From contig QIKV01000150.1 of assembly GCA_003233115.1 (NCBI GenBank), positions 1-42,155 on the forward strand: a stretch of DNA of 42,155 bases, written 5' to 3'. The translations under genes and the position numbers were made by a program. Numbering within the stretch: position 1 is the stretch's first letter; each line of letters begins with the position of its first letter. Source of the stretch: Oceanospirillales bacterium (GTDB taxonomy: Bacteria; Pseudomonadota; Gammaproteobacteria; Xanthomonadales; SZUA-36). A model generated the notes under the pieces. It saw only the letters and a list, made by a program, of their open reading frames with translations. It was not told the origin of the DNA and searched no databases. This document shows positions 1,051 to 33,080 of the stretch, in pieces.

Positions 1051-1065
1051 ACTTGCGGCAATTCT

Positions 1066-2300: not shown

Positions 2301-2301
2301 A

Positions 2302-2327
2302 GTATCACTGTATCATATAGTGATACA
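2302..2327 (-). promoter_or_regulatory. Palindromic GntR operator overlapping the gntR promoter
   Basis: Nested inverted repeats are seen: GTATCAC (2302-2308) with GTGATAC (2320-2326), and TGTATCA (2309-2315) with TGATACA (2321-2327). On the minus strand, TATGAT (2317-2312) inside the palindrome makes a good -10 element, and no good -35 is seen. A bound repressor would cover the -10 and the predicted transcript start, fitting autoregulation by the adjacent gene. The assignment to this regulator is inferred from position. Confidence 0.7.
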
Positions 2328-2354
2328 GATGATAAGGAAATTAATCCCAACGTG

Positions 2355-2470: not shown

Positions 2471-2549
2471 CACGCAGTAAAGATCGATTTGGTATATGTA
2501 CTTGCCTTTCGGCACCAAAAAGAGGCAGGTTATCTTCAAAACCAGTGAT

Positions 2550-4244
2550 TCAGGCACTCGGCACGCCAGGCTCCGTTGTATCCTTGTCCCAGCTCCCATT
2601 CAGGTTTTCTTCGATACGATCGCGGCGCAAGCGCATGCTGTACGCCACCCACATGATCAGGGCTGAGAACACGGCAATCGTCGGCATCGCGGTGGGCATA
2701 TCGAGAATACCGAGATTGCCCTTGCCCATGGATGGATCCGGATACGAGCCCAGCCAGCTAATCAGGGTCAGTCCACCCAACCACGGGATTACCCAGAAGC
2801 CCGAACGCAGGTCCAGACGCGGTGTGCGCTTATGATAAAAGGCCTCGTGGATGATCAGTATGCTGAATCCCAGCAGTACGGCAATAGCCAGCTTCCAGTC
2901 AACGTCCCAACCCGACCAGTAGACAATCAGGTTAGAGGACAGGAACGCGAGATAAGGAATAATGATACCGCCGGGTAAGCGGAACGGGCGCTCGTATCCG
3001 GGTAGTTCCTTGCGCAGTGTCATCAACACCAGGGGGCCGGATCCGAATGACAGCACGGTGGCTGAGGTCACAAAACCGACCAGTTTCTGCCAACTTGGAA
3101 ACGGCAAAAAGAAGATCAGGCCAACGACGAATGCCACGATCACGCTGACCCAGGGTACGCCGTGATCATTGACCCTGGCTAGCGATGCCGGGGCATTGCC
3201 ATTGCGACCCATGGCGTAGGACAAGCGCGCCGTGACGGTGGTGTAGATCAGCCCGGTGTCGGCGGGGGAGATGAAGGCATCGATGTACAACAGTAGTGCC
3301 AGCCAGGTCATGCCAAGGGTCATTGACAGGGTGGCTAGCGGTCCGAAAGCCATGGCCTTGTTCTCAATGCCACCGGAAAAGGTGGTGCCGATATTGGCCC
3401 AGCCATTGGCGAGGGCCACATCGGGCAGGGCCCCGATGAAAGCTATTTGCAGGCCGATGTAGATCACAGCGCAGCCCAGCACCGAGCCGATAATGGCAAT
3501 TGGCACATTGCGGCTGGGGTTGTCGGTTTCACCGGCCAATTCCACACCTTGTCGGAAGCCAAGGTAGGAAAAGATGATACCGGCGGTGGCGATGGACGAG
3601 AACACACCGTGCCATCCAAATGGCATGAACCCGCCATGCTTGGCGTAGGTGAAATGACTGCTGTTGAATTCGGCGCTGAAGAAAGCGACGACCACCAGCA
3701 TGATGATGGCGATCTTCCACCACACCAGGGCATTGTTGAGTCGCGCAAACCAGCGGATACCCACCACGTTGACCAGGCTAAACAGAAACATCAATGCGGC
3801 TGCGGCGATATAGCCCACTGGGGTCAGTACGGCAACGCCATCAACGAGCACCTGCAGATTGGGGATGTAGTTGTTGGCGTATTGCAACGCGGCCAGTACC
3901 TCAATCGGTGCTGTAGATGCGGCCGCCAGCCAGGTGATCCAACCGGTGGTGTAACTGGCGAATGAGCCGAATGCGAAATGGGGAAAGCGCACGACGCCAC
4001 CCGACAACGGAAACATGGTACCGAGTTCGGCGTAGGTGAGGCCGATGAACAGGATCATGACCGCGCCGAGCAGCCACGAAATGATTGAGGCCGGGCCGGC
4101 CTGCTGGGCTGCGTTCAAGGCGCCGAACAGCCAGCCCGAGCCAATGATCGAGCCCACCGCAGTAAACAGCAGGCCGACCAGGCCAACATGGCGCTTCAGT
4201 CGTTTGTCATCGCTGCCACTGGCAAGAGTCGAGGGCGTTTGCAT
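2550..4244 (-). CDS. APC-superfamily amino acid permease
   Basis: A 564-residue inner-membrane transporter of the amino acid-polyamine-organocation superfamily, expected to import an amino acid or related compound with protons. About 12 to 14 hydrophobic helices are visible. The first carries the unwound-helix motif GSIIGSG (residues 31-37) that binds the substrate amino and carboxyl groups. The GVELAGETDNPSRNVP stretch after the sixth helix is a family signature. Its length and the tail helices resemble aspartate:proton symporters of the YveA/AspP type, but substrate cannot be read from sequence. A clear ribosome site (GGAAGGGA) precedes the ATG at 4244. It is apparently transcribed alone. 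Confidence 0.9.
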   Translation of the reverse strand: MQTPSTLASGSDDKRLKRHVGLVGLLFTAVGSIIGSGWLFGALNAAQQAGPASIISWLLGAVMILFIGLTYAELGTMFPLSGGVVRFPHFAFGSFASYTTGWITWLAAASTAPIEVLAALQYANNYIPNLQVLVDGVAVLTPVGYIAAAALMFLFSLVNVVGIRWFARLNNALVWWKIAIIMLVVVAFFSAEFNSSHFTYAKHGGFMPFGWHGVFSSIATAGIIFSYLGFRQGVELAGETDNPSRNVPIAIIGSVLGCAVIYIGLQIAFIGALPDVALANGWANIGTTFSGGIENKAMAFGPLATLSMTLGMTWLALLLYIDAFISPADTGLIYTTVTARLSYAMGRNGNAPASLARVNDHGVPWVSVIVAFVVGLIFFLPFPSWQKLVGFVTSATVLSFGSGPLVLMTLRKELPGYERPFRLPGGIIIPYLAFLSSNLIVYWSGWDVDWKLAIAVLLGFSILIIHEAFYHKRTPRLDLRSGFWVIPWLGGLTLISWLGSYPDPSMGKGNLGILDMPTAMPTIAVFSALIMWVAYSMRLRRDRIEENLNGSWDKDTTEPGVPSA

Positions 4245-14396: not shown

Positions 14397-16703
14397 ATGA
14401 AAATTGCTTGTGTCGGGGGTGGGCCTGCAGGTCTGTATTTCGCTATTTCCATGAAACTGCGTTCACAGGAGCATCAACTGACAGTGTTTGAGCGCAACCG
14501 GCCTGATGACACTTTTGGCTGGGGCGTGGTTTTCTCGGATGGCGTACTGGCCAACCTGGCAAAGAATGATGTGCCATCAGCCGACATGATAACCGATGGT
14601 TTCATTCACTGGGATGATATAGACGTTCACTACCGGGGCGAGGTCATGTCGTCCGGGGGGCATGGATTTTGTGGTATCGGTCGTCAGCATTTGTTGAATA
14701 TCCTCTATCAGCGGGCGGCCGAGCTGGGTGTGGAACTGGTATTTGAAACCGAGGTGGAACCGGATATTGAGCAGTTTTCTGATTATGACCTGGTGATTGC
14801 TTCCGATGGAATTAACAGTCGTTTCCGGGAGGCTTACAAGGCGCACCTGGATGTAGATATCGATATGCGGCCCAACAAGTTTATCTGGCTGGGTACGCAC
14901 AAGTTGTTCGATGCGTTTACCTTTATCTTCAAGGAGACACCGGCAGGCTGGATATGGGTGCATGCCTATCGCTTCGACCAGGATACCTCAACCTTCATTG
15001 TCGAATGCCAGCAATCAACCTGGCAGGCACTGGGCCTTGGCGAAATGAGCCAGCAGGAATGTTCACGCTACCTGGGGGATCTGTTCAGTGAGTGCCTGGA
15101 CGGCAATGCCCTGATGAGCAACGCCAAACACATTCGCGGCTCAGCCTGGATCAGTTTTCCACGCGTGTTGTGTGGTCAATGGCGCTACCGGAATCTGGTG
15201 CTGATCGGTGATGCTGCCCACACGGCACATTTTTCGATTGGTTCAGGTACCCGGCTTGGGTTTGAGGATGCTGTTCACCTGGCCAATGCTTTGAATTCGA
15301 ATACGGATATTGACCAGGCGCTGGAGGATTATCGCGCGACCCGCACGATTGAAGTTTTGCGCTTGCAGAGTGCTGCACGCAACTCGATGGGGTGGTTCGA
15401 AAACCTGCCTCGTTATACGCACCTTGAGCCGATGCAGTTCAACTATGCGTTGCTGACCCGCAGCCAGCGTGTCAGTCATGAGAACCTCCGCTTACGTGAT
15501 GCCGGCTGGCTGGGGCGCATGGAGTTGTGGTTTGCCAACCAGGCTGCCGATAAAAGCAGCGAAAGCACAGTAACGGATGGTGCTGCTGCGCCACCCATGT
15601 TCACGCCATTCAAGCTGCGGGATATGCTGCTGAAGAACCGCGTCGTCGTCTCGCCGATGGCCATGTACAGCGCAGTTGATGGTACGCCCAATGATTTCCA
15701 CCTGGTACACCTGGGTGCGAGGGCGCAGGGTGGAGCCGGGCTGATCATTACCGAGATGATCGGTGTTTCAGCCAATGGCCGCATCACGCCCGCCTGCGCG
15801 GGCCTGTACCATGACGGGCATATCGGACCGTGGCAAAGGGTGGTTGATTTTGTTCACGGCATCGACGGGGCCATGATTTGCGCACAACTGGGCCATTCCG
15901 GCCCAAAAGGCGCGACCAAAATACTTTCAGAAGGCGCGGACAAGCCCCTGGATGAGGGGGCCTGGGAAGTCATGGCGCCGTCCCCGCTTGCCTGGTCACC
16001 TGAAAACCAGGTGCCCAGGGAAATGACGCGCGAGGATATGCGCCAGGTACGTGACGCGTTTGTGGCCGCGGCTGAGCGGGCGGAAACCTGCGGTTTCGAC
16101 ATGCTTGAAATGCATTTTGCGCATGGTTACCTGATGTCCTCATTCATCTCGCCACTGACGAATAAACGCGGCGATGAATATGGTGGGAGCCTCGACAACA
16201 GGCTGCGTTTCCCACTGGAAGTTTTTACGGCAGTACGTGAGATATGGCCGCAGGCTAAACCAATGGCCGTTCGCATTTCCGCGACAGACTGGGTCGAAGG
16301 CGCGCTGGATGGGAATGACGCCGTGCACATTGCGCGCGCATTTTCTGACGCAGGTGTTGATATCATGGATATCTCTGCAGGCGGGACCAGCACCGCTGCC
16401 CGGCCGGTGTACGGACGCATGTTCCAGACACCGTTGAGCGACCAGGTTCGACTGGAGGCAGGTGTGGCCACCATGGCGGTGGGAAATATTTACGAGACCG
16501 ATCATGTCAACAGCATCATCGCAGCGGGACGTGCTGACCTGTGCTGTCTGGCCCGGCCACACCTGGCCGATCCGTACTGGACGCTGCATGCTGCTGCGCA
16601 GCTTGGCTATAAAGGTCAAACCTGGCCGGTGCAATATCTGTCCGGGCGTAGCCAGTACGAACGTAATCTCGCCCGTGCGGCAGAAATGGTTCTCAATGCA
16701 TAG
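14397..16703 (+). CDS. Bifunctional flavin monooxygenase/Old Yellow Enzyme (2-aminobenzoyl-CoA or salicylyl-CoA type)
   Basis: A 768-residue fusion. Residues 1-390 form a class A flavin monooxygenase, with the FAD motif [12 protein letters not shown] at the N-terminus and the second FAD motif at [10 protein letters not shown] (GD at 271-272). From about residue 401 ([15 protein letters not shown]) an Old Yellow Enzyme barrel follows, with [14 protein letters not shown] (H573, H576) and the FMN-binding end. This architecture is that of 2-aminobenzoyl-CoA monooxygenase/reductase of Azoarcus evansii and of 'salicylyl-CoA 5-hydroxylase/oxidoreductase' proteins: O2-dependent hydroxylation of an aryl-CoA, then ring reduction by the second domain. 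The RidA gene in the operon favours an amino-aryl substrate. It heads the operon behind the operator at 14348-14381. No CoA ligase is in view. Confidence 0.9.
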
Positions 16704-16727
16704 GGCTATCGCAAAGGGAGTAGAAAG

Positions 16728-17219
16728 ATGCCGGGTAAAGCACAAACAGCGATAGACAAACTGGAACAAACGCCGCGCAGAAAGATGGCTTTGCGTATCT
16801 GGCTGCGCTTGCTCACTTCGTCGCAGTTGATTGAAAAGCGGGTACGGGGACGTTTCCGGATCGAGTTTGATACCACCCTGCCCCGCTTTGATGTAATGGC
16901 GGCGCTGGCACGTGAACCGACCGGCCAGACCATGGGCGACGTGTCCCGCTGGTTACTGGTATCAAGTGGCAATATCACAGGCATCATCTCGCGGCTTGAA
17001 GAGGATGGGTTGGTAACACGCGCCCGCAGTACCGATGACCGGCGTTCACATTTGGTCAGGCTCAGCCGCAAAGGCGCACATGAGTTCGAAAGTTTGTCTC
17101 TGGCACATGAGAAATGGATAAGAAATATGCTGTCCGGGATGACAAGACAGGAAATGGCAACGCTCGATGAATTGCTGACCAAGGTCAAGGTTTCGCTGGC
17201 CAAAGAGGAAGCCTCATGA
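16728..17219 (+). CDS. MarR-family transcriptional regulator
   Basis: A 163-residue winged-helix regulator. The helix-turn-helix ([28 protein letters not shown]) and the wing ([19 protein letters not shown]) are typical MarR features, flanked by helices for dimerisation. MarR proteins controlling aromatic degradation usually release DNA on binding an aryl-CoA or acid. The gene sits inside the operon, 24 bases after the monooxygenase with an AAAGGGAG ribosome site, and overlaps the crotonase gene by ATGA. It is the only regulator in the catabolic island, which makes it the best candidate to bind the palindromes at 14348 and 33279. That link is inference. Confidence 0.93.
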
Positions 17220-18016
17220 CTGTCAGGGCCGAGCACTTTGACTGGCAGCAGGATGGTGACGTTGGCCTGGTCACGCTCAACCGGCCGGACCGGAAAAACC
17301 CGCTGACATTCGAGTCTTATGCAGAGTTACGTGATACTTTCCGGAGCCTCTGCGGGACTGGTTCAGTCAAGGCGATCGTTATTTCCGGTCAGGGCGGTAA
17401 TTTCTGCTCCGGCGGCGATGTGCACGAAATAATCGGGCCGTTAACAAAGATGGATATGGGGGGGTTATTGGATTTTACCCGCCTGACGGGTGACCTGGTC
17501 AAAGCAATTCGCCATTGCCCGCAGCCGGTTATTGCAGCCATTGATGGTGTCTGTGTTGGTGCAGGTGCGGCGGTCGCAATGGCGGCAGATATGCGTTTTG
17601 GTACAGCCCAAAGCAAGACGGCGTTCTTGTTCACCCGGGTCGGCCTGGCAGGCTGTGATATGGGTGCCTGCGCAATGCTGCCACGGCTGATCGGACAGGG
17701 CCGGGCGTCGGAACTGTTGTTTACCGGTCGTTCGATGTCCGGTGATGAGGCGTTTGACTGGGGTTTCTTTAACCGGCTATGTGAGCCGGAAGAGGTGAAT
17801 GCACAAGCGCTTGCCATGGCGCGCCGGCTGGCAGGCGGCCCTAATTTTGCGCATGGAATAACCAAGAACCAGCTAAATATCGAGTGGGATATGCCGCTGG
17901 ATACCGCGATTGAAGCGGAAGCACAGGCACAGGCGATGTGTATGCAGACCGAGGACTTCAAGCGTGCCTACCGCGCATTCGTTGCCAGGCAAAGACCGGA
18001 ATTCAAGGGTAACTGA
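17216..18016 (+). CDS. Enoyl-CoA hydratase/isomerase family protein (crotonase)
   Basis: A 266-residue crotonase-fold enzyme acting on CoA thioesters. The oxyanion-hole segments are present: [17 protein letters not shown] (residues about 58-74) and [18 protein letters not shown] (about 111-128). Of the two catalytic glutamates of rat hydratase, the one in PEI is replaced ([12 protein letters not shown], Arg at the Glu position), while the second appears kept in [10 protein letters not shown]. The reaction may therefore differ from simple hydration, for example hydrolytic ring opening of a cyclic oxo-acyl-CoA, as proposed for other aromatic pathways. It overlaps marR by 4 bases and the next gene by 1 base. 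Confidence 0.9.
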
Positions 18017-19200
18017 TGCCAGATCTGAGTTATCTTGAGTGGCCGTTCCTGGGCGAGTCACACCGCCGACTCAAGGGTGAACTTGACCGCTGGTGCAAGG
18101 CAAATTCTGCCGCGCTGGAATCGATGCCTGGACGGGGAGAAGCAGGTCTTGATGCAAGCTGTCACAAGCTGGTCAGGCTGCTGGGTGAAGGTGGCTGGCT
18201 GACCCATGCCGTTGCGGCTACGGTGAGTGAGGCAGATCAGCAACTGGAAGTGCGCAATCTGTGCCTGCTCCGGGAAGCACTCGCCTACCATTCTGGTCTG
18301 GCTGATTTCTGTTTTGCAATGCAGGGGCTTGGAAGTGGCCCGATCAGCTTGTTCGGTAGCCTGGCACAAAGGTCGGAGTGGCTCCCCGGCGTTGCGTCTG
18401 GTGCTAGCATCGCCGCGTTTGCTTTGTCTGAGAAGCAGGCCGGTTCTGATGTCAGTGCAATAAGAACGAGGGCCGAGCGTGACGGTGGGCACTACATTCT
18501 CAATGGCCAAAAGTGCTGGATTTCCAATGCCGGGATTGCCGATTTCTACACGGTTTTTGTACGCACCGGTGAAGCGCCAGGTACCAGGGGCCTGAGTGCT
18601 TTTGTGCTGGCAGCCGACACCCCCGGACTCACTGTCAGTGAGCGCATCGACATCATTGCACCGCATCCGCTGGGAACGCTTGAGTTTGAAAATTGCCGGA
18701 TTCCTGCCAGCCAGATGCTGGGTGAACCGGCACAGGGATTCCAGGTTGCGATGGCAACGCTGGACGTGTTCCGCACGACCGTTGCCGCTGCCGCATTGGG
18801 TTTTGCCCGGCGCGCCTGTGATGCGGTTTTGGGCCACGTGCTGAACCGGGAGTTGTTTGGTGCGCCATTGGCGGAGTTACAGATGACGCAGGCGTCCGTT
18901 GCGGCTATGGCACTGGATATTGATACCAGCGCGCTGCTGGTTTATCGTTCGGCCTGGGCTAAAGACGGAGGCCAGCAACGGGTCACGCGGGAAGCGGCGA
19001 TGGCCAAATTGCACGCCACCGAACAGGCACAGCAGGTTATTGATCGTACCGTGCAATTATTTGGTGGACTGGGCGTGACCTCCGGCCATGTGGCAGAGCG
19101 TCTGTATCGTGAAATACGCGCGCTAAGAATCTACGAAGGTGCCAGCGAAGTTCAGAAAGTGATCATCGCCCGCAATGAATACAAACGCTTTGCAAAATAG
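18016..19200 (+). CDS. Acyl-CoA dehydrogenase
   Basis: A 394-residue FAD enzyme that puts a double bond into an acyl-CoA, passing electrons to ETF. Family stretches are in order: [17 protein letters not shown] and [22 protein letters not shown] (FAD and substrate binding), [35 protein letters not shown], and [11 protein letters not shown] near the end, where Glu374 is the expected catalytic base. The ATG overlaps the crotonase stop by one base (TGATG). In this operon it would oxidise the product of the monooxygenase/reductase or an open-chain dicarboxyl-CoA. The exact substrate is not known. Confidence 0.93.
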
Positions 19201-19241
19201 CCTGATTTTGAAAAATATCAAGGGCGATTGGAGGTAGCAAT

Positions 19242-19646
19242 ATGTCCCAGAAAATTCTCTTGCCACCCGGCTGGCCGCGGCCGCATGGTTATTCCAACGG
19301 CATAGCTGCCGAAGGCCGGATGGTATTCGTTGCAGGACAAATCGGCTGGGATGAATCCCAGGTAATTCGTGACCACAGCATGGCTGGTCAGGTGGAGCAA
19401 ACGCTGAAAAACACCGTTGCCGTGCTGGCTGAAGCAGGTGCCGAACCCCGGCATATTGTCAGGATGACCTGGTATATCACCAGCCGCTCCGGGTATCTTG
19501 ATGAAGTTAAGGAGATTGGCAGGGTCTGGCGGGAAGTTATGGGGAAGCACTATCCAGCCATGGCAGTTGTGCAGGTATCCGCACTGATTGAAAGCTCAGC
19601 CAGGGTCGAGATTGAAACCACCGCAGTGGTTCCTGAAAACGGCTAA
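19242..19646 (+). CDS. RidA/YjgF family protein (enamine/imine deaminase)
   Basis: A 134-residue trimeric-barrel protein of the Rid family. Archetypal RidA hydrolyses reactive enamines and imines to the ketone and ammonia. Family motifs seen: VFVAGQIGWDE, TLKNTVAVLAEAGAEPRHIVRMTWYIT and the C-terminal SARVEIETTAVV, where the conserved Arg (ARVEIE) contacts the substrate carboxylate. A strong GGAGG ribosome site precedes it. Its presence in the operon points to a pathway intermediate bearing an amino group, as expected if the ring substrate is 2-aminobenzoyl-CoA and the reduced product is an enamine or imine. This is inference from context. Confidence 0.92.
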   Translation: MSQKILLPPGWPRPHGYSNGIAAEGRMVFVAGQIGWDESQVIRDHSMAGQVEQTLKNTVAVLAEAGAEPRHIVRMTWYITSRSGYLDEVKEIGRVWREVMGKHYPAMAVVQVSALIESSARVEIETTAVVPENG

Positions 19647-19675
19647 TTGAGAACGCCCCCGGGTAGTCAGTGTAG

Positions 19676-21142
19676 ATGTTCAGGCCATCGCAGCGAATCA
19701 AATACCAGCCCGACCCCGGGAAATCACCTTCTGCTGGCCGGGCGGAGGCTTCCAGGCTCTTCAGCCCGGTCAGCTATCACAACCTGCACCTGGAGCAGAG
19801 AACCTGGGTGCCGGCGATGGTGCCCTGGCGCGCCAGTGAAGAGGGCTGCGTCACCGATGATATTCTGGATTGGTATGAGCGCATGGCGTACGGCCGGCCA
19901 GGTGCGCTGGTTGTCGAGGCGACCGGAATACGTGATATCGCAAGCGGTCCATTGCTGCGCATGGGTCATGACCGCTATATCCCCGGCTTGAAGGAGCTGG
20001 CAGATGTTGTGCGCCACGCCAGTGAAGGGCACACACGACTGTTTATCCAGATCATTGATTTCCTTTCAATCCGGCGGCGCCCACAACGCGGTAAGTTTCT
20101 GGGCCGTTTTCTTGAGATCACGCCGTCACATTGTCGGCTGCTGCGTGCACAGGGCTGTGACGAGGCTGAAATCCGGGCACAGCTATTGGCTCTTTCAGAC
20201 CAGGAATTGCAGGACATTCTCACAGCAAGGGAGTTTGAAAGCCTTACCCGGGGTTACCGCGAGCGTGTAACCGATACACACCTGCCGCATATCCGGGCGT
20301 TGCCTGGCATACTGCCGGATTTATTTGCTGCTGCGGCAGGGCGCGCACAACAAGCCGGTATGGACGGGGTGGAATTGCACTATGCCCATGCCTATACCAT
20401 GGCGTCATTCCTGTCCGCACGAAACCGGCGTGATGATGGCTACGGTGGCGCGAAGGAGCAGCGTATACGGTTGCCGCTGGAAGTTTATCGGCAGGTCAGG
20501 CAAGTGGTTGGTGATGATTACACCGTTGGCTGTCGCTATCTCAGTGATGATTGTATTGATAATGGCAGTGATGTTGAGGATGCGAAATTTTTTGGTATTG
20601 AATTTGCACGTGCCGGCATGGACTTTCTGTCGCTTTCACGCGGCGGTAAATTCGAAGATGCAGCACAGCCAAAACCGGGTTGGTCAGCTTACCCGTACAC
20701 GGGCTTGAGCGGTTATGAATGCATGCCGTCGTATATTTCTGATGAGCAGGGTCCATTTGGCCGTAACTTCGAACCGGCCTCGGCCGTACGTGCAGCGATC
20801 CGCCAGGCAGGCTTCGCAACACCGCTTGTTGTTGCCGGCGGTATCCACGGGTTTGAACAGGCCGAAGCGGTACTCGCAAACGGCATAGCCGATATCGTTG
20901 GCGCGGCGCGGCAAAGCCTCGCAGACCCGGATTGGTTTCTGAAGCTGTATCTTGGCTGTGGTGATGAAATTAACGTGTGCCAATACACCAATTCCTGTGA
21001 AGGACTGGATCAGAAACACAAGCAGGTTACCTGCAAATTATGGGATCGTACCTGCCTTGATCAAGCCGGCGTTAAGCTGAGCAAGGATGGCCGGCGACGG
21101 CTTACCGCCCCTGTTTGGAAGCGAACCCCCCGGCGAACTTGA
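19676..21142 (+). CDS. NADH:flavin oxidoreductase, Old Yellow Enzyme family
   Basis: A 488-residue FMN enzyme with the TIM barrel of Old Yellow Enzymes: LFSPVSYHNLHLEQRTWVPAMVPW at the domain start, GVELHYAHAYTMASFLSARNRRDDGYGG with H235 in the active site, and VVAGGIHGFEQAE for FMN phosphate. A Cys-rich tail (NVCQYTNSCEGLDQKH) recalls enoate reductases that carry an Fe-S cluster, but here the spacing is not the classical four-Cys motif. It is the second Old Yellow Enzyme in the operon. The N-terminus is unusual: about 28 low-complexity residues precede the normal start, a stop directly precedes the ATG, and no ribosome site is seen. Confidence 0.88.
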   Translation: MFRPSQRIKYQPDPGKSPSAGRAEASRLFSPVSYHNLHLEQRTWVPAMVPWRASEEGCVTDDILDWYERMAYGRPGALVVEATGIRDIASGPLLRMGHDRYIPGLKELADVVRHASEGHTRLFIQIIDFLSIRRRPQRGKFLGRFLEITPSHCRLLRAQGCDEAEIRAQLLALSDQELQDILTAREFESLTRGYRERVTDTHLPHIRALPGILPDLFAAAAGRAQQAGMDGVELHYAHAYTMASFLSARNRRDDGYGGAKEQRIRLPLEVYRQVRQVVGDDYTVGCRYLSDDCIDNGSDVEDAKFFGIEFARAGMDFLSLSRGGKFEDAAQPKPGWSAYPYTGLSGYECMPSYISDEQGPFGRNFEPASAVRAAIRQAGFATPLVVAGGIHGFEQAEAVLANGIADIVGAARQSLADPDWFLKLYLGCGDEINVCQYTNSCEGLDQKHKQVTCKLWDRTCLDQAGVKLSKDGRRRLTAPVWKRTPRRT

Positions 21143-24564: not shown

Positions 24565-26298
24565 TTAGCCCGTCACTTTCCTGATTAAAGCGCGGCCGAT
24601 AAACCTGGCTTTGTTGCCGATGCTAAAGCGCTCCAGGTTAGTTTTCACGACGCCTTTGGTGAAGCGGGTGCGTTTTGAGTAGTCAATTTTAACTTCTACG
24701 ATCACAGGTTTGTTCCGCGCAGCAAATGCAAGGGCGCTTTTTATACCTGCCTCAATGGCGGTGTCATCCGCGATGGCAACGAATTCACAGCCGGTCGCCT
24801 CAGCAATACCCTTGATTCTCAGCGGGTGTAAAACTGAGCAGGTCTTTCGGTTATAGGGGATTTCCTGAGCCTGGGAAATTTGCGACAACTCACCGTCGTT
24901 AAACACAAAGTAGACGCCGCCGACCTGGAGCGAGGAGGCTGTCAGTGTTTCCATGCAGGTCATCAAAAAGGCACCATCGCCGACAATACCCACGACCTGC
25001 CTGCCTGGGTTAACGAGCTTGCTGGCAGTCACGGCAGGCACGCAATACCCCATGCAGTTAAAGTCGGTGGGAGAGATGAAGCCTTGCGCATTATGGATGG
25101 GCATCAGCTCGGCCGCCAGGAAGGTATGATTCCCATCGTCGGCCACCACGATGGCGTCATCGTCCAGTTGATTACGCAGTGCCACAAAAAACCGGGCCGG
25201 ATTGACGCGGCCCTTGCTGTCATGCCTGAACCACTCTTCCAGGTAGGCCCGCTTGTCTTTCGCAATGGCAGCCTTGAGCGTGCCATTGTCAGGTTTTGGC
25301 CCACCCAGTGCTTCAAGTTCTTTGCGGAGTTCCGCCAGTACAACCCTGGAATCACCCTCAATGGCAATCCTGGCCGCGTAATTGGCACTGAAGACAGCAG
25401 GATTTATATCGATATGGATCAGGTTAGCCGGCGGCTTGACAGCAAAACTACCGGTGGCGATTTCGCTGAAGCGAGTACCCACAGCCAGCATGCAATCACA
25501 GCCTTTGAAAGCATTTTCTGCAGCCGGAACGGCTGCCTGGCCAAAACCCATGCCGGTATGTAACGGGTTGTTGGCCGGAAATGCACTTAGCCCCTGCAAG
25601 GTGGTTGCCACCGGCGCATTCAGAAACCGGGCTATTTGTACGGATTCATCGCTGGCATGAACGGCACCCCAGCCCAGAAACAGCACCGGTTTGCTGGCCG
25701 CATACAGCGTTTTGGCTGCCTGCTGAATCATGCCGGGGTCAGTCCCGGCATCTTTGCTGGTGGCACTAAAGGGCCTGAGCTCTGAAACATCCCCCGGGAA
25801 CAACTGTAAATTGACAGGCACTTCTACAAAAACCGGTCCCGGTTCACCTTCTGTAGCGATATGGTAAGCCTCGTAAATGGCGGGGACCAGTTCCTCATGC
25901 GTTTCAATTTTGTAGGTCTTCTTGGTGATTGGTGCCAGCAGGGCATGCTGGTCAATCTCATGTAATTGATAGGTTTTATCGCTGTCAGTACGGATGCCAC
26001 CAGAGATTATCAGCATTGCGATACCATCGAGAAATGCTTCGCCAATGCCGCTCGCGGCATGGGTGACACCGGCTGCCGGGACAATCAGTATGGTGCCAAT
26101 GCTGCTGGATGTCCGGCTGATCGCATCGGCCATAAAAGCTGCGCCCCCCTCATGGGTAACAAGAACAGGGCGAATTAACTCAGATTTATTGAGTTCATCG
26201 TATATTTCAGTGTTGTGAACACCGGGAATGCCGAAAGTATATTTAACGCCTATTTGCTCAAGAGCGTAGCGTACTAACCATGCGCCTGTCTTTTTCAT
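24565..26298 (-). CDS. Thiamine-diphosphate-dependent enzyme, acetolactate synthase-like
   Basis: A 577-residue enzyme with the three-domain fold of acetolactate synthase, benzaldehyde lyase and 2-oxoacid decarboxylases. The N-terminal domain has the catalytic Glu50 in VTHEGGAAFMADA. The central Rossmann domain starts near residue 190. The C-terminal domain has the ThDP motif GDGAFL (440-445), with a later FNDGELSQ closing the motif (ND where NN is usual). MGYCVPAV replaces the usual MGYGLPAA. The natural reaction is unknown; decarboxylation or carboligation of an aryl 2-oxoacid would suit the neighbouring oxidoreductase. A GAGGA ribosome site precedes the ATG. It diverges from the acyl-CoA dehydrogenase at 26428. 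Confidence 0.85.
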   Translation of the reverse strand: MKKTGAWLVRYALEQIGVKYTFGIPGVHNTEIYDELNKSELIRPVLVTHEGGAAFMADAISRTSSSIGTILIVPAAGVTHAASGIGEAFLDGIAMLIISGGIRTDSDKTYQLHEIDQHALLAPITKKTYKIETHEELVPAIYEAYHIATEGEPGPVFVEVPVNLQLFPGDVSELRPFSATSKDAGTDPGMIQQAAKTLYAASKPVLFLGWGAVHASDESVQIARFLNAPVATTLQGLSAFPANNPLHTGMGFGQAAVPAAENAFKGCDCMLAVGTRFSEIATGSFAVKPPANLIHIDINPAVFSANYAARIAIEGDSRVVLAELRKELEALGGPKPDNGTLKAAIAKDKRAYLEEWFRHDSKGRVNPARFFVALRNQLDDDAIVVADDGNHTFLAAELMPIHNAQGFISPTDFNCMGYCVPAVTASKLVNPGRQVVGIVGDGAFLMTCMETLTASSLQVGGVYFVFNDGELSQISQAQEIPYNRKTCSVLHPLRIKGIAEATGCEFVAIADDTAIEAGIKSALAFAARNKPVIVEVKIDYSKRTRFTKGVVKTNLERFSIGNKARFIGRALIRKVTG

Positions 26299-26427
26299 TT
26301 CTGTCCTCGCAGGTAGCCATTGTGGCCTGGATATTTAGTGCTGCAGATCATTTTCCCGGACCCTGAAATCGTCCATAATAAAGGTATCGATTTACCACCA
26401 TAGTATTGTTAGCAGGAATTGTATCTG

Positions 26428-28206
26428 ATGAGTGACTACCGTTTCCCCTATAAAGACGCTGCGTTTATATTGAATGAGGTACTTGGCTTCGAGCAAATGT
26501 GCTCGGATGCCGGGCTGGAAGAGGTAAACGCCGAGTTGGCTACTGCCATTTTGGAAGAGGCCGGCCGGCTGGGCAGCGAAGTGTTTGCCCCTTTAAATGC
26601 CGTTGGTGATCGTGAGGGTGCCACGCTTGGTGAGAATGGTGTGCAGGAGTCCCCGGGGTTTGCCGATGCCTACCGCCAGTATGTGGACAATGGCTGGGCG
26701 TCGCTTGCAGCCGACCAGCAGTATGGTGGTCAGGATATGCCAAAGATGCTGGCGGCGGCTGTGGTGGAGATCTGGGACAGTTCCAATCTCGGCTTGTCGC
26801 TGTGTCCCTTGTTGACCACCGGGGCCGTCACGGCCCTTGCGGCGCATGGTTCGGATGAACTGAAAAACACCTATTTGCCGGCTATGGTGAGTGGTCAATG
26901 GTCTGGTTCGATGTGCCTGACAGAACCTGCTGCGGGTTCTGACCTCGCTGCCGTGACGTCTAAAGCGGTGCCGGAAGGAGATCATTTCCTGGTGACCGGT
27001 CAGAAAATATTCATCACCTGGGGCGACCACCAGATGACGGAAAATATCATTCACCTGGTGCTGGCTCGTCTGCCGGATGCGCCGGCGGGGGTCAAGGGGA
27101 TCTCCCTGTTCCTGGTACCCAAGTTTCTGCTGGATGAAAATGGTCAACCGGGTGAGCGCAATGATGTGTACTGCGTGGGGATCGAACACAAGCTGGGTAT
27201 TCACGGCAGCCCGACCTGCAGCATGAACTTTGGTGACAACGGTGGTGCCATCGGTTATCTCGTTGGTAAGCCACACAATGGCCTGATGGCCATGTTTACC
27301 ATGATGAATGAGGCTCGCCAGGGCGTTGGCATACAGGGCCTGGGTGTCTCAGAGCGTTCCTATCAGCAGGCTTTGACTTATGCCAAAGAGCGCCTGCAGG
27401 GCACCCGCAGCGATGGCTCCCGCTTTCCAATCATTGAATTTCCGAACGTACGGCGGATGCTGATGCTGATGAAATCGGTGACCGAAGCGATGCGTGGTTT
27501 GATCTATATTGCCGCGGCGCAGGCTGACCGCACACGTTGGGCGAAGCGTCCGGAAGAAGCGCACAGACAGGCTGCGCGAACTGCCTTATATACGCCGATC
27601 GTCAAGGGCTGGATTTCGGAGTTGTCACAGGAAATTACCTCTTATGGCATTCAGGTTCATGGCGGCATGGGCTACGTTGAAGAAACCGGCAGTGCCCAGC
27701 ACTACCGCGATGCGCGCATTCTGACCATATATGAAGGCACAACCGGTATCCAGGGCCTGGATCTGGCTGGACGTAAAATCCTCGCGGACAAGGGTATGGC
27801 CTTGCAGGAACTGCTGGATGAGATCCAGGCGACGGCTGACGACCTGTCGAGTGTGACGGGCCTGGCCGGCATGGCTGCCGCTTTGCGGGAGGCCGTGCAG
27901 ACCGGCGGGGAGGCGCGGGCATGGTTGCTCGAATACGCCTCGCGGGACCGCGATGCCGTCGGTGGCGCCAGTGTCAATTTCCTGATGCTGCTGGGTTATG
28001 TTTGTGGCGGTTGGGTCATGGGGCAATCTGCACTCAAGGCAGCCCGCCTGTTGGAGGCCGGTGGTGGTGATGAGGCATTTTTATGTACCAAACAGGTGAC
28101 GGCACAATTTTACTTTGATCATGTACTGCCGCGTGCCGGTAGCTGCCTGGCAACGATCAAGTCAGGCAGCGACAGCATGATGGCACTGGCAGCGGAGCAG
28201 TTCTGA
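26428..28206 (+). CDS. Acyl-CoA dehydrogenase, long DmdC/FadE-like type
   Basis: A 592-residue flavoprotein, started at ATG 26428 behind AGCAGGAATT rather than the TTG nine bases upstream. It has the usual dehydrogenase core (LTEPAAGSDLAAVTSKA, VTGQKIFITWGDHQMTENI, LGIHGSPTCSMNFGD, VHGGMGYVEETGSAQHYRDARI, IYEGTTGIQ with Glu436 as catalytic base) and a 130-residue C-terminal extension. Extended forms of this kind include 3-methylmercaptopropionyl-CoA dehydrogenase (DmdC) and are also common in fatty-acid and aromatic side-chain oxidation. The substrate is not known. It lies between the ThDP enzyme and the oxidoreductase operon, so a role on an acyl-CoA made by that oxidoreductase is reasonable. 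Confidence 0.93.
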   Translation: MSDYRFPYKDAAFILNEVLGFEQMCSDAGLEEVNAELATAILEEAGRLGSEVFAPLNAVGDREGATLGENGVQESPGFADAYRQYVDNGWASLAADQQYGGQDMPKMLAAAVVEIWDSSNLGLSLCPLLTTGAVTALAAHGSDELKNTYLPAMVSGQWSGSMCLTEPAAGSDLAAVTSKAVPEGDHFLVTGQKIFITWGDHQMTENIIHLVLARLPDAPAGVKGISLFLVPKFLLDENGQPGERNDVYCVGIEHKLGIHGSPTCSMNFGDNGGAIGYLVGKPHNGLMAMFTMMNEARQGVGIQGLGVSERSYQQALTYAKERLQGTRSDGSRFPIIEFPNVRRMLMLMKSVTEAMRGLIYIAAAQADRTRWAKRPEEAHRQAARTALYTPIVKGWISELSQEITSYGIQVHGGMGYVEETGSAQHYRDARILTIYEGTTGIQGLDLAGRKILADKGMALQELLDEIQATADDLSSVTGLAGMAAALREAVQTGGEARAWLLEYASRDRDAVGGASVNFLMLLGYVCGGWVMGQSALKAARLLEAGGGDEAFLCTKQVTAQFYFDHVLPRAGSCLATIKSGSDSMMALAAEQF

Positions 28207-28239: not shown

Positions 28240-29643
28240 CTACTTTGGTGCCCCGCTTGAGGAAGTTTTGTCCGTGGAGGAAACACCGGGATCAGTCATT
28301 GGCGCCTTGAACACCAGGCCCCCTTTCACCACTACTTTGACGTCTTCGAGTATCGAAATATCATCCAGCGGATTACCCTTGACCGCTATCAGATCACCCA
28401 GCAGACCAGGCTCGATGGCGCCGACACGGTGCTCCCAACCCAGGTAGTGTGCCGCCACCGAGGTGGCAGCCTGGATGGCTTCCATGGGGGTCATGCCCCA
28501 CTCCACCATGTAGGGGAACTGGATGGCGTTCATGCCGTGGGGGAAAATCGAAACATCGGTGCCGAAGCCAAGCGCTACGCCGGCTGCATGCGCGCGCTTG
28601 AAATTTTCGCGCTGTACCTGGGTGGTTTCGATGGTTTTGCGCAGGAATTCTTCAACCCATCCCTGCTTCCGGCCCTGCTCAATCATCCAGTCGCCTGCCC
28701 CGATGTCCATGACGAGCGCAACATCATGCTCAATCGCCAGCGCAATACCTTCATCATCGATATAGGTTGCGTGCTCAATGGTGTCCACACCGGCCCGAAT
28801 CGCATCCTTGATGGACTGGGCACCGTGCGCATGTGCGGCTACTTTCAGTCCCGCTGCATGTGCCACTTCCACCACCGCCGCGATCTCCGCAAAGGTCATC
28901 TCAGGATCCCCGGGCACACCGCCATAGGCCAGTACTGCACCCGAGGCGATTACTTTCAGCACGTCCGCTCCCCCGTCAACCAGGGCTTGAGCATTTTTTC
29001 GGAACTCATCGACAGAGCGGGACACGCCCATGCGCAGATGTGCCGGAATGGCATCCTCGTCGCCACCGGGTTCCAGCAGATCACCACCGCCGCCAGGAAT
29101 CGTCAGATAGAAGCCTGAAACCAGTAACCGCGGGCCAACCGTGTCACCACGATTGATTTCATCGCGCAGGTCGCGATCCACCCAGCCATAGTAATTGCCG
29201 AGATTTCGCACAGTCGTAAAGCCTGCGTTGATAGCCAGTTGTGAATATTTTCGACCGGCCTGCATGAAGTCTTCATGGGTATAGTCGAAATACAAGGTCA
29301 GATCGACCAGTTCTTCAAAACTTTCCAGCATGTGGGCATGCATTTCGATCAAGCCGGGCAGACAGGTGTATGCAGACAGGTCGAGAACCCTGACACCGGG
29401 TGGCGTTTCAATCCGGGTGCCAATCCTGCTGAACCGACCTGCTTCAATCAGCACGGACATATTTTTCAATACGTCGTCGGAACGACCATCAATAAGTGTA
29501 CCGCAACGAATCAGGACGTTACCGCTATCGACCTGGTTTGGAGTGCTGGCTAACCCGGGCTGTGGCGAATTATCAACCGCGGGACTGGAGCAGGCCACCA
29601 GCAGGATCGACGCCAGGCCATAGAGTAGTTTATTTCCAATCAT
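28240..29643 (-). CDS. Lipoprotein amidohydrolase (imidazolonepropionase-like)
   Basis: A 467-residue metal-dependent hydrolase of the amidohydrolase superfamily. It carries a lipoprotein signal peptide with lipobox LVAC (Cys18), so it should sit on the periplasmic face of a membrane. The full metal site is visible: H102 and H104 (MHAHM), K230 as likely carboxylated lysine (DVLKVIASG), H271 (AAHAHG), H291 (TIEHATY) and D363 (GTDVS). Relatives include Xaa-Pro, Xaa-Arg and hydrophobic dipeptidases and N-acyl-amino-acid hydrolases. The ATG overlaps the stop of the 2-oxoacid oxidoreductase by ATGA. That pairing suggests it frees an amino acid or amine from an amide outside the cytoplasm, with its 2-oxoacid used by the oxidoreductase; this is inference. 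Confidence 0.9.
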   Translation of the reverse strand: MIGNKLLYGLASILLVACSSPAVDNSPQPGLASTPNQVDSGNVLIRCGTLIDGRSDDVLKNMSVLIEAGRFSRIGTRIETPPGVRVLDLSAYTCLPGLIEMHAHMLESFEELVDLTLYFDYTHEDFMQAGRKYSQLAINAGFTTVRNLGNYYGWVDRDLRDEINRGDTVGPRLLVSGFYLTIPGGGGDLLEPGGDEDAIPAHLRMGVSRSVDEFRKNAQALVDGGADVLKVIASGAVLAYGGVPGDPEMTFAEIAAVVEVAHAAGLKVAAHAHGAQSIKDAIRAGVDTIEHATYIDDEGIALAIEHDVALVMDIGAGDWMIEQGRKQGWVEEFLRKTIETTQVQRENFKRAHAAGVALGFGTDVSIFPHGMNAIQFPYMVEWGMTPMEAIQAATSVAAHYLGWEHRVGAIEPGLLGDLIAVKGNPLDDISILEDVKVVVKGGLVFKAPMTDPGVSSTDKTSSSGAPK

Positions 29644-32600
29644 GCTATTTTTCCCAGTAGGTGTTGCAGTTGTTTGTCTGCTTTTTCAGCATGACGTAGC
29701 TTGACGTGACCGTACCCGCGAATGGTCGTGGCCAGTGCTGCAATCTGTGTCGCAGTGTCCAGTTTGTCGATGGCAAGCGCAGCACAAATTTCAGTGATAA
29801 TTTGCTCGTACTGATCAATGCGTGCACGTTCATCACGGCGTTCGCGGGTATAGCCAAACATATCAAAAGGGGTTCCACGCAGAAATTTAAAGCGCGCGAG
29901 CAGGCGCATAAATGGCCTGATCCAGGAACCAAAAGCAAGCTTGCGTATGTGTCCCGTTTTACTGTCGCGGCGGGTTAAAAAGGGTGGTGCCAGATGGTAG
30001 GTGATTTTATATTTTCCAGAGATCGTCGCCTGCAGTTGGCGTGTGAACGCTTCGCTCGTGTGCAGTCTCGCTACTTCATATTCGTCTTTATATGCCATGG
30101 TGTGAAAAAAACCTTCGGCCACCGCGCGGCAGAATACTTCACTGTTGGCGTTAACCCGCTGCTCTGCTTGCCGGGCCGTATCAACCAGTGACCGGTAACG
30201 CCTCGCGTAGGCGGAATCCTGATAATCGATCAGGTAGTTTTCATGTAAAACAATGCTGTCATCCAGTGAAATGTGTGCAGGCAAAGCTGCTGATTTACCC
30301 ATTCCGGTAAGCTCCTGCATCAGAGCAGGGTCGTGTGCAGCCAGGCGTCCGTAGGTAAAACAACGGGTATTGGTGTCAGAGCCGGCACCGTTGAGGCGTA
30401 TGGCCTGGTTGATGGCCTCGGCACTGATGGGAATGGTGCCTGCCTGCCAGGCAAAACCCAGCAGCAGCATATTGGCCGTAATGGTATCCCCGGCAAGTTT
30501 TTCACTTAGCCTGGTGGCATTTACAAACAGCGGTCCGGGCTCGCCAATGGCAGCCGAGATGCCGCTTTTGAGTTGTGCTGCGTCGATCAGGCTGTTTGGA
30601 TCCAGCACGTTGCTGCCGGTTGGAGAAACATGGGTGTTGACGACCGCGCGGGTGACATTTTTACTAATCCGGCCAATGGTTTCAGTAGCCAGTGCGGTCA
30701 CCATGTCACCGGCCAGCAACAGGTCGGCCTTCCCCATCGGGACACGCGATGCCTGCACCTTTTCCTGGTGCCCGCTAACTCGCACATAGGACATAACACC
30801 GCCGCCTTTTTGTGCCAACCCCGGAAAATCGAGGACCGAACAACCCAGGCCCTGCAGGTGAGCGGCCATGCCAACAATGCGGCCGATGGTAACGACACCC
30901 TGGCCGCCGATACCGGTGATAACCATATCGAATGAATCCTGCAGATCCGGCAGTTGAGGTTGGGGCAGGCCGGCGATTGCCTGTTCCAGGTGGCTGCTCT
31001 CGTTGGCCAGGATGGTGGCCGGCCTGGCCCCGGTAATGCTGACAAAACTGGGGCAAAATCCCAGCAGGCATGACCTGTCGATATTGCATGAAGACTGGTC
31101 AATCTGGCGCTTTATGCCGAACGCTGTTTGCCTGGGAACGACGGACAGGCAATTAGACTGCTCTACACAATCACCGCAACCCTCACACACCGCCTCGTTA
31201 ATAAACAGGCGGGTCTCTACACCAGGTAATTTCTGGCGCCGTTTACGGCGGCGCTTTTCTGCGGCGCAAAGCTGGTCGTAAATCAGCGCGGTTACACCAC
31301 TGATGCTACTCAGCTCCCTTTCAACTGACTCCAGTTCATCGCGGTGATGCGTGGTGACGCCGGGTGCAAATCCGGTCACCTGCGAATATTTACCCGGCTC
31401 ATCCGACAGTACCGCGATGCGCCTTACCCCCTCGGCATGCAGTTGTCGAGTGACCTGGGGTACAGTGAAATGGCCGTCTACCAATTGGCCGCCGGTCATG
31501 GCCACGGCATCGTTATGCAAGATCCGGTAGGTAATGTTGACATCGGCGGCCACCGCCTGGCGTATCGCGAGTGAGCCGGAATGTGTGTAAGTACCATCGC
31601 CCAGGTTCTGGAACATGTGCGTCGTTCTACAAAAGGGTGCCTGGCCAACCCAGTTGGCACCTTCAGCACCCATGTGCAGAAATCCGGAGGTATCCCGATC
31701 CATGAAAACCGCCATCAGGTGACAGCCAGTGCCTGCGAGCACACGACTGCCATCTGGTGGCACCGTTGAACGGTTGTGCGGACAACCGGAGCAGAAAAAG
31801 GGCGTGCGCGGGGTGCCAGCCAGGGCGATCACACTTTCCTGCTGTGCAATGCGGGCAAAATACTCCTGGCTACGTTGTTGCGGCGCGACTCCGGGCCACT
31901 GCTGGGTGATGACCCTTGCAATTAATTCGGGTGAAAGTATGCCGGTTCCCGGTAACAGTGGCTGGCCTTGTGCACCTGCTTTCCCAGACACCCTGGGTCG
32001 GCTTGACTCGGGTAAGCCGTAAAGTGCTTCCTTTAGCTGGCTTTCGATGAAACTGCGTTTTTCCTCGATGACCAGTACTTCTTCAAGACCGCTAGCAAAA
32101 TCGATGGCACCGCTGCTTTCAAGCGGCCATGGCATGCCAACCTTGTAAATGCCCAGGCCGGTTTCAGCGGCGCGAGCTTCATCTATGCCCAGGTCAGCCA
32201 GGGCCTGACGGACCGAAAGATAGGCCTTGCCGCTGGTGATGATGCCAAAGCGCCTGTTTTTCGTACCCCATACCACCTGGTCTACCGCATTTGCAGCCGC
32301 AAACGCCAGCGCGGCGGGGAGCTTGAAATTCTGCAATCTGGCTTCCGCTTCAAGTTGCTGGTAGGGCCAGCGGTAGTGAAGGCCTCCCGGCGGGCTGTCA
32401 AAATCAGGCAGGAAGATTTTCGGCCGCTCACTGTCGATTAGTACAGATGCTGCTGACTCAATGATTTCACTTTCAATCTTCAGACCAACATAACAGCCCG
32501 AGAAGCGTGACATGGCCCAACCAAGCAGGCCGAAATCCAGTATTTCGGCAATGTTGGATGCATGCAGAACCGGCATCATCCAGGAGGCAAACAGTTGCTC

Positions 32601-33080
32601 GCTCTGGTGGGCCATGGCGGATGATATGGCATTGTGATCATCCCCGACGACAATGAGTGCACCACCATTGGGTGTCGAGCCCATGGAGTTCGCATGTTTC
32701 AGCGCATCGCCAGCGCGATCAAGACCGGGGCCCTTGCCGTACCACAGGGAGAAGACACCATCACAGGCAGCATCGGTCTGGGCCGCGACCTGCTGTGTGC
32801 CAATAATGGCTGTGGCCGCCAGTTCCTCGTTTATCGCTGGCACGAAGGTGATTTGCCGGGCGTCGAGCAAATGCCTTATCCTGGCCAGGATCATGTCGTA
32901 GCCGGCTATAGGTGAGCCGCGATAGCCTGAGATAAACCCGCCCGTGTTCAATCCTGCCTGGATATCCCGCAGCCGCTGCTGCAGGGGCAGGCGGGCCAGC
33001 GCCTGGGTGCCGCTCATGAAGACGCGACCGTGGTTCAGAGTGAAGGTATCTTCAAGCGTGGCTTGCTGTTGCAATTTCAT
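29640..33080 (-). CDS. Indolepyruvate:ferredoxin oxidoreductase family, fused subunits
   Basis: An 1146-residue cytoplasmic enzyme oxidising aryl or branched 2-oxoacids to acyl-CoA, with ferredoxin or a similar acceptor. In order: the alpha-like half with GFISGYRGSPIAGYDM and the ThDP-binding region; CSGCPHNRST; a ThDP motif zone with DRDTSGFLHMGAEG; a ferredoxin-like segment CEGCGDCVEQSNC (about 630) with further Cys (SSCNIDRSCLLGFCPSF); then the gamma-like domain GIGGQGVVTIGRIVGMAAHLQG and FPGLAQKGGGVMSYVR. Fusion and length match proteobacterial IorAB-type single-chain enzymes, which work aerobically. It overlaps the lipoprotein amidohydrolase and has its own promoter at 33151-33179. Substrate is likely an aryl pyruvate, given the neighbours, but unproven. 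Confidence 0.92.
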   Translation of the reverse strand: MKLQQQATLEDTFTLNHGRVFMSGTQALARLPLQQRLRDIQAGLNTGGFISGYRGSPIAGYDMILARIRHLLDARQITFVPAINEELAATAIIGTQQVAAQTDAACDGVFSLWYGKGPGLDRAGDALKHANSMGSTPNGGALIVVGDDHNAISSAMAHQSEQLFASWMMPVLHASNIAEILDFGLLGWAMSRFSGCYVGLKIESEIIESAASVLIDSERPKIFLPDFDSPPGGLHYRWPYQQLEAEARLQNFKLPAALAFAAANAVDQVVWGTKNRRFGIITSGKAYLSVRQALADLGIDEARAAETGLGIYKVGMPWPLESSGAIDFASGLEEVLVIEEKRSFIESQLKEALYGLPESSRPRVSGKAGAQGQPLLPGTGILSPELIARVITQQWPGVAPQQRSQEYFARIAQQESVIALAGTPRTPFFCSGCPHNRSTVPPDGSRVLAGTGCHLMAVFMDRDTSGFLHMGAEGANWVGQAPFCRTTHMFQNLGDGTYTHSGSLAIRQAVAADVNITYRILHNDAVAMTGGQLVDGHFTVPQVTRQLHAEGVRRIAVLSDEPGKYSQVTGFAPGVTTHHRDELESVERELSSISGVTALIYDQLCAAEKRRRKRRQKLPGVETRLFINEAVCEGCGDCVEQSNCLSVVPRQTAFGIKRQIDQSSCNIDRSCLLGFCPSFVSITGARPATILANESSHLEQAIAGLPQPQLPDLQDSFDMVITGIGGQGVVTIGRIVGMAAHLQGLGCSVLDFPGLAQKGGGVMSYVRVSGHQEKVQASRVPMGKADLLLAGDMVTALATETIGRISKNVTRAVVNTHVSPTGSNVLDPNSLIDAAQLKSGISAAIGEPGPLFVNATRLSEKLAGDTITANMLLLGFAWQAGTIPISAEAINQAIRLNGAGSDTNTRCFTYGRLAAHDPALMQELTGMGKSAALPAHISLDDSIVLHENYLIDYQDSAYARRYRSLVDTARQAEQRVNANSEVFCRAVAEGFFHTMAYKDEYEVARLHTSEAFTRQLQATISGKYKITYHLAPPFLTRRDSKTGHIRKLAFGSWIRPFMRLLARFKFLRGTPFDMFGYTRERRDERARIDQYEQIITEICAALAIDKLDTATQIAALATTIRGYGHVKLRHAEKADKQLQHLLGKIA

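Follow-up and report, generated by a model that had tools for sequence, protein, structure and literature searches.

Among described systems, the genes reported here come closest to those of the aerobic 2-aminobenzoyl-coenzyme A (CoA) pathway (Azoarcus evansii, Arthrobacter Rue61a, Cupriavidus SHE). According to the relevant passage of a review, the corresponding cluster is required for anthranilate degradation by Cupriavidus SHE (PMC6221969), and excerpts on Arthrobacter grown on anthranilate describe a C7H8O4 acyl-CoA, for which cyclohexanedione-carboxyl-CoA is suggested (PMC3534580). A further point of reference is provided by the iad loci of Variovorax, Bradyrhizobium and Achromobacter, where iorB/iadB and iotA/iadA are named as exclusive markers of iad-like operons and isatin and isatinic acid are placed on the path in the sections of PMC9613470 on which we draw. 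Here we analyse six genes at positions 14397-21142 (+ strand) of a 42,155-nucleotide stretch of DNA (the window), which is contig C17 (QIKV01000150.1) in the 3.19-Mb draft genome of an Oceanospirillales bacterium (GCA_003233115.1, our genome G000; 94.7% complete, 5.9% contaminated). On balance, we think it probable that they form the CoA-bound lower pathway of anthranilate, for which 2-aminobenzoyl-CoA would be supplied, at least in part, without a ligase, namely via isatinate and an IorA-IorB oxidoreductase encoded on another contig. Like the aerobic 2-aminobenzoyl-CoA pathway and its relatives linked to kynurenine (kyn) genes, the window has a monooxygenase/Old Yellow Enzyme (OYE) fusion, a MarR regulator, a crotonase, an acyl-CoA dehydrogenase and a Rid protein; it differs in that the six genes include neither the cluster ligase nor the short-chain dehydrogenase/reductase (SDR), in that a second Old Yellow Enzyme (OYE2) is added, and in the ligase-free supply we propose.

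Isatin hydrolase and IorA-IorB genes on a second contig

Contig C7 of the same genome carries, in a row on the + strand, genes for MarR, a TonB receptor, an isatin hydrolase, IorA and IorB. Solved isatin hydrolases (5nmp, E 7e-105) are far better matches to the hydrolase than kynurenine formamidase (8e-9), and it carries the metal motif HxGTHxDxPxH together with GLAS, the signature given in PMC6117287 (searched for as HxG[TA]HxDxPxH with GLQC or GLAS); among the hydrolase matches in the loci examined, the metal motif is kept in 33/33 and GLAS or GLQC in 32/33. Although alike in sequence and motifs to 5nmp, 5nna/5nnb and 4j0n, this protein, whose activity is predicted, differs from them by the IorA and IorB genes downstream. 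C7 IorA shares 67% identity with its counterpart at locus L101 and stays below the cut-off of TIGR03336 for the indolepyruvate ferredoxin oxidoreductase alpha subunit (272 versus 651 bits), and a PDB sequence search with it gave no match, while C7 IorB (44-48% identical to IorB of other loci) passes only the subfamily model NF006179 (627 bits, cut-off 348). Genome G003 has the same row of isatin hydrolase, IorA and IorB, so C7 is unlikely to be contamination, and the G+C content of C7 is alike. Divergent from these genes, C7 also encodes (905-4150, - strand; L180) another IorA-like protein as well as a class-V aminotransferase/kynureninase-like one, and G003 has a similar aminotransferase there.

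With the iad loci the genome shares IadA/IadB-like genes and an isatin hydrolase (the IadI position), a likeness drawn from the pairs of other loci and from the gene order of genome G443 rather than from a published IadA sequence. In G443 the order is IorA, IorB, a 330-residue open reading frame (ORF), Rieske alpha, Rieske beta, AMP ligase, thiolase-like, SDR-like and isatin hydrolase, as in the published iadA-I letters. Unlike such loci, the first 20 kb of C7 (C7:1-20000, the only stretch searched) has no match to Rieske IadD/IadE, iadF-like or iadG-like proteins, and the lower pathway lies on another contig. Both parts are found together elsewhere. Azospirillum thermophilum encodes on one strand IorA, IorB, a VanB-type reductase, Rieske alpha and beta, an AMP ligase and an SDR, followed by fusion, SDR, crotonase, acyl-CoA dehydrogenase, thioesterase and Rid; its AMP ligase is 61% identical to an iadF-like protein and 28% to the cluster ligase, and the latter and MarR are not in the stretch shown. 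A single locus of G377 unites IorA, IorB and isatin hydrolase with fusion, Rid, acyl-CoA dehydrogenase, crotonase, MarR and SDR in a genome that has no match to the cluster ligase. Separately from these, a Deinococcus psychrotolerans plasmid (L312, 7986-18210) combines the fusion cluster and ligase with an isatin-hydrolase-like gene (47%, GLTS in place of GLAS/GLQC) and a thiamine pyrophosphate (TPP) enzyme; isatinate may there take a non-oxidative route, which would then depend on the ligase.

In the scheme we envisage, isatin would be opened to isatinate (2-aminophenylglyoxylate) by isatin hydrolase, and an IorA-IorB enzyme of the iadAB kind would oxidatively decarboxylate isatinate to yield 2-aminobenzoyl-CoA directly. 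We propose a ligase-free supply because of gene order, co-occurrence and the missing cluster ligase: with all 19 candidates scored, the best match in the genome to the Ruegeria cluster ligase, a dedicated 2-aminobenzoate-CoA ligase, is 37% identical (E 4.6e-90) and none reaches E 1e-110. Its absence weakens the case for a complete classical pathway, not that for the handling of 2-aminobenzoyl-CoA.

Co-occurrence of fusion, ligase and IorA

For co-occurrence, 397 genomes of the window's phylum were drawn evenly, with at least 90% completeness requested, and in each genome only the two or three top-ranking candidates were scored, at E thresholds of 1e-150 (fusion), 1e-110 (ligase) and 1e-120 (IorA). 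The fusion occurs in 83/397 genomes, the ligase in 79 (77 shared with the fusion) and IorA in 32 (30 shared with the fusion); only G191 and G233 have IorA without the fusion, and theirs is a 55-56% identical form. Close IorA proteins (at least 61% identity) are found in 28 genomes, all 28 of which have the fusion. Six fusion genomes lack the ligase (G000, G114, G256, G297, G350, G377), five of them with IorA, and the G256 locus has another AMP ligase (34%). The 30 genomes with fusion and IorA spread over 20 genera and 11 families, and 17 of them have both genes on one contig and no more than 40 kb apart. Within the 10.6-20 kb retrieved around IorA, 17/28 cases include an isatin hydrolase, and four of the remaining 11 have Rieske alpha and beta.

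Several observations weigh against this reading. Fisher's exact p values, 1e-20 for fusion with IorA and, among fusion genomes, 0.02 for IorA with a missing ligase, are both uncorrected for kinship, and on the named fusion tree (see below) the IorA label takes at least six changes, compared with a mean of 8.2 after shuffling and with 46/500 shuffles as low. Moreover, where IorA and fusion occur together, the ligase is usually there too (25 of 30 genomes). Within the window's clade, close IorA plus isatin hydrolase occur in just two of six genomes (G000, G003), kynureninase is above cut-off in four of six, and a search of G005 found no close IorA, isatin hydrolase, kynureninase or cluster ligase. 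The Rid protein of the window, moreover, lacks the catalytic arginine (Arg105/Arg107) by which an archetypal RidA is recognised. Finally, in the portion of a 2025 preprint that we cite, Variovorax iadC-K2 (nine genes, without iadAB) restores free anthranilate (PMC12633357), which counts against IadAB being needed to form anthranilate. By our own reading, the compound formulae in that portion fit isatinate and 2-aminobenzaldehyde, and since the construct, to judge by its gene letters, lacks iadAB, their build-up would fit a missing isatinate consumer.

With these points in mind, it is a plausible view that the operon is of the known anthranilate-type CoA kind, equipped with a variant accessory enzyme and fed without a ligase. 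More tentatively, and with a little less than even confidence, we suggest that IadA-IadB is an isatinate:acceptor oxidoreductase forming 2-aminobenzoyl-CoA and CO2, that the free anthranilate of iad strains is a side product, and that OYE2 stands for a new family of CoA-ester flavoenzymes belonging to this pathway. Full-text literature searches, with subscription journals largely outside their reach, brought up no paper that joins isatinate, an IadAB-type oxidoreductase and 2-aminobenzoyl-CoA. If true, the proposal would give a function to iadA and iadB, markers to which the parts of PMC9613470 and PMC12633357 cited here assign no reaction. It would also imply a ligase-free link from auxin, indole and isatin to the dearomatising anthranilate pathway, so that auxin breakdown could reach central metabolism without passing through free anthranilate.

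Alternative substrates and thioester sources

The fusion gene (14397..16703, + strand) encodes a protein of 768 residues in which a flavin adenine dinucleotide monooxygenase domain (PF01494) is joined to an OYE domain (PF00724), and for which we propose 2-aminobenzoyl-CoA monooxygenase/reductase activity. Its score of 1235 bits against NF006101 (cut-off 1078), which NCBI names salicylyl-CoA 5-hydroxylase, might be taken to mean that the operon degrades salicylate via gentisyl-CoA. The same name, however, is passed on to kyn-linked fusions and so does not discriminate; indeed, it may mislead to salicylate degradation where the pathway is one for anthranilate. To judge from 13 annotated named loci carrying the fusion (named plasmids), aerobic 2-aminobenzoyl-CoA clusters typically comprise fusion, MarR, crotonase (NF006107), acyl-CoA dehydrogenase and Rid, accompanied in these loci by SDR and AMP ligase. 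In Ruegeria pomeroyi the set and ligase lie beside kynA, and in Thalassospira (kynU, kynA) and Sagittula (kynA, kynU) likewise beside kyn genes; the set with SDR and AMP ligase is also found in Phyllobacterium, Sulfitobacter (Rid being a distant one), Paracoccus, Deinococcus, Comamonas (no Rid annotated), Pseudochrobactrum and Gemmobacter. Crotonase and acyl-CoA dehydrogenase are missing from the stretches shown of Cupriavidus taiwanensis and Rhizobium leguminosarum. Kyn genes thus accompany the fusion in 3/13 named loci and a gentisate-dioxygenase-like cupin in 1/13. That one is Cupriavidus taiwanensis, whose related fusion (55%) adjoins a hydrolase of the fumarylacetoacetate hydrolase (FAH) family and a cupin reaching 312 bits as gentisate 1,2-dioxygenase, below the cut-off of 442. 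On a named tree of 52 rows, a 20-row group (support 100/99) unites the window's clade and the three named kyn-linked fusions; the Cupriavidus fusion is in a different group. There is no clean split, though, as the G228 fusion, which comes with kynA, kynU and ligase, sides with the Cupriavidus one. The grouping was judged by gene neighbours rather than by characterised sequences, and on a single gentisate-dioxygenase-linked fusion; L260 is labelled for kyn genes although IorA is also there, and L077 and L132 carry the IorA-IorB label from IorB at the locus edge. This tree replaced a first one in which 57 ungrouped rows were the sole reason why a single branch set the IorA label apart. Family models find no gentisate dioxygenase among the six window genes, and the reductase half, Rid, crotonase and acyl-CoA dehydrogenase are unnecessary for a gentisate route. 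All told, we regard salicylate as a very improbable substrate, and anthranilate is the favoured one. The amino-aromatic CoA route put forward in an earlier note on this DNA is borne out by the three named kyn-linked clusters and the place of the window's fusion in their clade, and our phylogeny, read by gene neighbours, separates the fusion from the gentisate-linked one, except that the kyn-linked G228 fusion blurs the line.

As for the thioester, the earlier note had rightly seen no aryl-CoA ligase near the operon, which is true of the six genes, and the genome-wide search led to the 37% match described above. This ligase lies on contig C90 in a box operon (BoxC 872 bits, BoxB 832 bits, benzoate-CoA ligase 687 bits) and was rejected as the cluster ligase for being part of it. 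It could nonetheless be that the anthranilate pathway draws its thioester from an ordinary ligase encoded at some other place in the genome, for instance a promiscuous benzoate-CoA ligase of this box operon, and that IorAB makes something else; such an enzyme could supply the thioester and to that extent speaks against the isatinate route. Further in favour are the 18 AMP-ligase matches in the genome, the cluster ligase in 77/83 fusion genomes and the kynureninase genes in the clade, though G000 is not among the four genomes that have one. Against it stand the low identity of the best match and the fact that close IorA occurs in our sample only with the fusion, often near it and near isatin hydrolase, so that we hold an ordinary ligase to be rather unlikely. 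The note's own idea, that an enzyme other than a ligase may provide the thioester, is supported by the IorA-IorB pair behind isatin hydrolase on C7. Its candidate, a fused 2-oxoacid oxidoreductase that would serve an operon acting on another aryl-CoA ester, is indeed encoded at 29640-33080 (NF009589, 1519 bits, cut-off 816), 8.5 kb from the operon. A fused enzyme of this length is present in all six clade genomes, and in G005 one that is 78% identical lies some 20 kb from the operon on the same contig. In the remaining four of the five relatives, however, it is on a contig separate from the operon, and the window's enzyme shares just 22-28% identity with those fusion-linked IorA and IorB proteins that were compared. 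Not being kept near the operon, it was dismissed as the CoA source; we find this origin quite improbable and the IorA-IorB pair of C7 likelier.

Beside these arguments we note a Cupriavidus taiwanensis plasmid (L311, 8001-12533) in which the fusion, cupin and FAH-family hydrolase stand without the usual set, possibly another aryl-CoA version. In the part of PMC13215587 cited here, 98% of Massilia strains are reported to have SdgC, taken there as salicylate degradation; as a guess, SdgC may be this fusion under a misleading name.

Conservation of the six-gene run

ORF calls and family models agree on six ORFs at 14397-21142 on the + strand (fusion, MarR, crotonase, acyl-CoA dehydrogenase, Rid-like, second OYE), in keeping with the earlier description of the locus. 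Successive genes are spaced by 24, -4, -1, 41 and 29 nt. The overlaps once ascribed to the whole run are therefore confined to MarR/crotonase (4 nt) and crotonase/acyl-CoA dehydrogenase (1 nt), the other junctions being gaps. Relatives G005, G007 and G014 have the identical order, and G003 and G006 have the run without crotonase, which in these two (L054, L053) was found neither between MarR and acyl-CoA dehydrogenase nor in the surrounding 19-20 kb; across these relatives the proteins are 72-89% identical. As the same order recurs in relatives, the gene set goes beyond chance, and this conserved run is most likely an operon. The regulator gene (16728..17219, + strand; 163 residues) is a MarR family match. 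A scan for promoters and terminators was uninformative (7 and 13 matches versus 4.9 and 7.4 by chance). At a contig edge of the same genome (C181:1-3727, L058) lies a second, partial copy of fusion, MarR, crotonase and acyl-CoA dehydrogenase, 83-93% identical, which may reflect a strain mixture or a true paralogue.

Proposed steps after dearomatisation

In the pathway we favour, the fusion would hydroxylate and reduce 2-aminobenzoyl-CoA, as reported for its family, after which the Rid protein may hydrolyse the ring enamine to a beta-keto thioester. Encoded at 19242..19646 (+ strand; 134 residues), this candidate enamine hydrolase for a CoA-bound substrate shares PF01042 and Tyr17 with archetypal RidA and differs from it by Met107 in place of the catalytic Arg. 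Among Rid matches in the loci examined (at least 40% identity and 85% length; about four of the 49 are repeats, G003, G005, G007 and G014 having been fetched twice), this position is Met in 47/49 and Ile in 2/49, while Tyr17 is kept in 49/49; a distant Sulfitobacter Rid (25%, outside the identity limit) carries Arg there. In archetypal RidA, according to the passages of PMC4433059 used here, Arg binds the carboxylate and its replacement by alanine nearly abolishes imine hydrolysis. The earlier proposal that RidA deals with an enamine or imine is weakened accordingly: a Rid-family gene is there, yet it is no standard RidA. Loss of the carboxylate-binding Arg would suit a thioester substrate for this putative enzyme.

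Ring opening would fall to the crotonase (17216..18016, + strand; 266 residues; NF006107 466 bits, cut-off 330). Asp148, invariant in 46/46 matches, aligns with an Asp of PaaG (4fzw), and Arg or Lys occupies the position of the first catalytic Glu in classical hydratases. By analogy to BadI/MenB, the enzyme may be a hydrolase that opens the ring hydrolytically. The acyl-CoA dehydrogenase (18016..19200, + strand; 394 residues), with Glu374 of its YEG motif present in 48/49 matches (the remaining one unread), would then start beta-oxidation. Together with OYE2, the Arg-less Rid may serve as a pointer for steps after dearomatisation.

The second Old Yellow Enzyme

OYE2 (19676..21142, + strand; 488 residues) has PF00724 and the OYE fold, matches no NCBIfam model at its cut-off and contains an insert of about 100 residues after residue 116. 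Its AlphaFold model has a mean predicted local distance difference test score of 82 and is weak at 441-448; Foldseek places ene-reductases on top, with 2-naphthoyl-CoA reductase (6qkg) at rank 16 and 2,4-dienoyl-CoA reductase (1ps9) at rank 47. With these two OYEs acting on CoA esters the model shares its fold, whereas OYE2 is only about 20% identical to them, is shorter, and has the insert and three invariant cysteines versus four in the established cluster motif. Cys435, Cys441 and Cys453 are invariant in 27 rows, and the fourth Cys is not at its expected place, next to which the weak stretch 441-448 should be borne in mind. The three resemble an Fe-S motif short of one ligand, the [4Fe-4S] motif of FadH/NCR-type OYEs having four cysteines.

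OYE2 is present in 7/61 genomes (its own included) and is rare in the 397-genome sample (2/397). Loci were counted for the best 80 of at least 548 relatives in the genome scan, which are 61-81% identical. Fusion and OYE2 share the locus in 31/80, and the fusion is elsewhere in the genome (E < 1e-150) in 42 of the other 49, one a fragment, which makes 73/80 OYE2 genomes as compared with 83/397 in the other sample, one of different make-up. In nine loci without a nearby fusion OYE2 adjoins the cluster ligase; in all but one of the corresponding genomes (8/9) the fusion is found elsewhere. These data describe a conserved family whose membership in the pathway is likely. As an added flavoprotein, OYE2 might, on weak support, return the aromatised by-product 2-amino-5-hydroxybenzoyl-CoA to the pathway by reducing it; 5-hydroxyanthraniloyl-CoA has been reported under reduced nicotinamide adenine dinucleotide (NADH) limitation in the part of PMC3534580 considered here.

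The window's clade lacks the SDR between fusion and MarR, with G014 having an SDR nearby. OYE2 as a general SDR replacement was rejected, given an SDR in 18 (strict) to 28 (loose) of the best 80 OYE2 loci. OYE2 is also found near tryptophanase in Limnohabitans and L088: on the Limnohabitans plasmid (L045, 15001-20173), which has a type II CRISPR system, an OYE2 orthologue (55%) lies near tryptophanase and kynurenine genes.

Neighbouring genes

Between the operon and the fused oxidoreductase, the window encodes an acetolactate synthase-like TPP enzyme (24565-26298, - strand) and a long acyl-CoA dehydrogenase (26419-28206, + strand). Considered as an isatinate decarboxylase, the TPP enzyme shares only 24% identity with the TPP protein encoded next to the Deinococcus isatin-hydrolase-like gene. 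G005 and G007 likewise have both genes close to the operon, and G006 has the TPP gene there.

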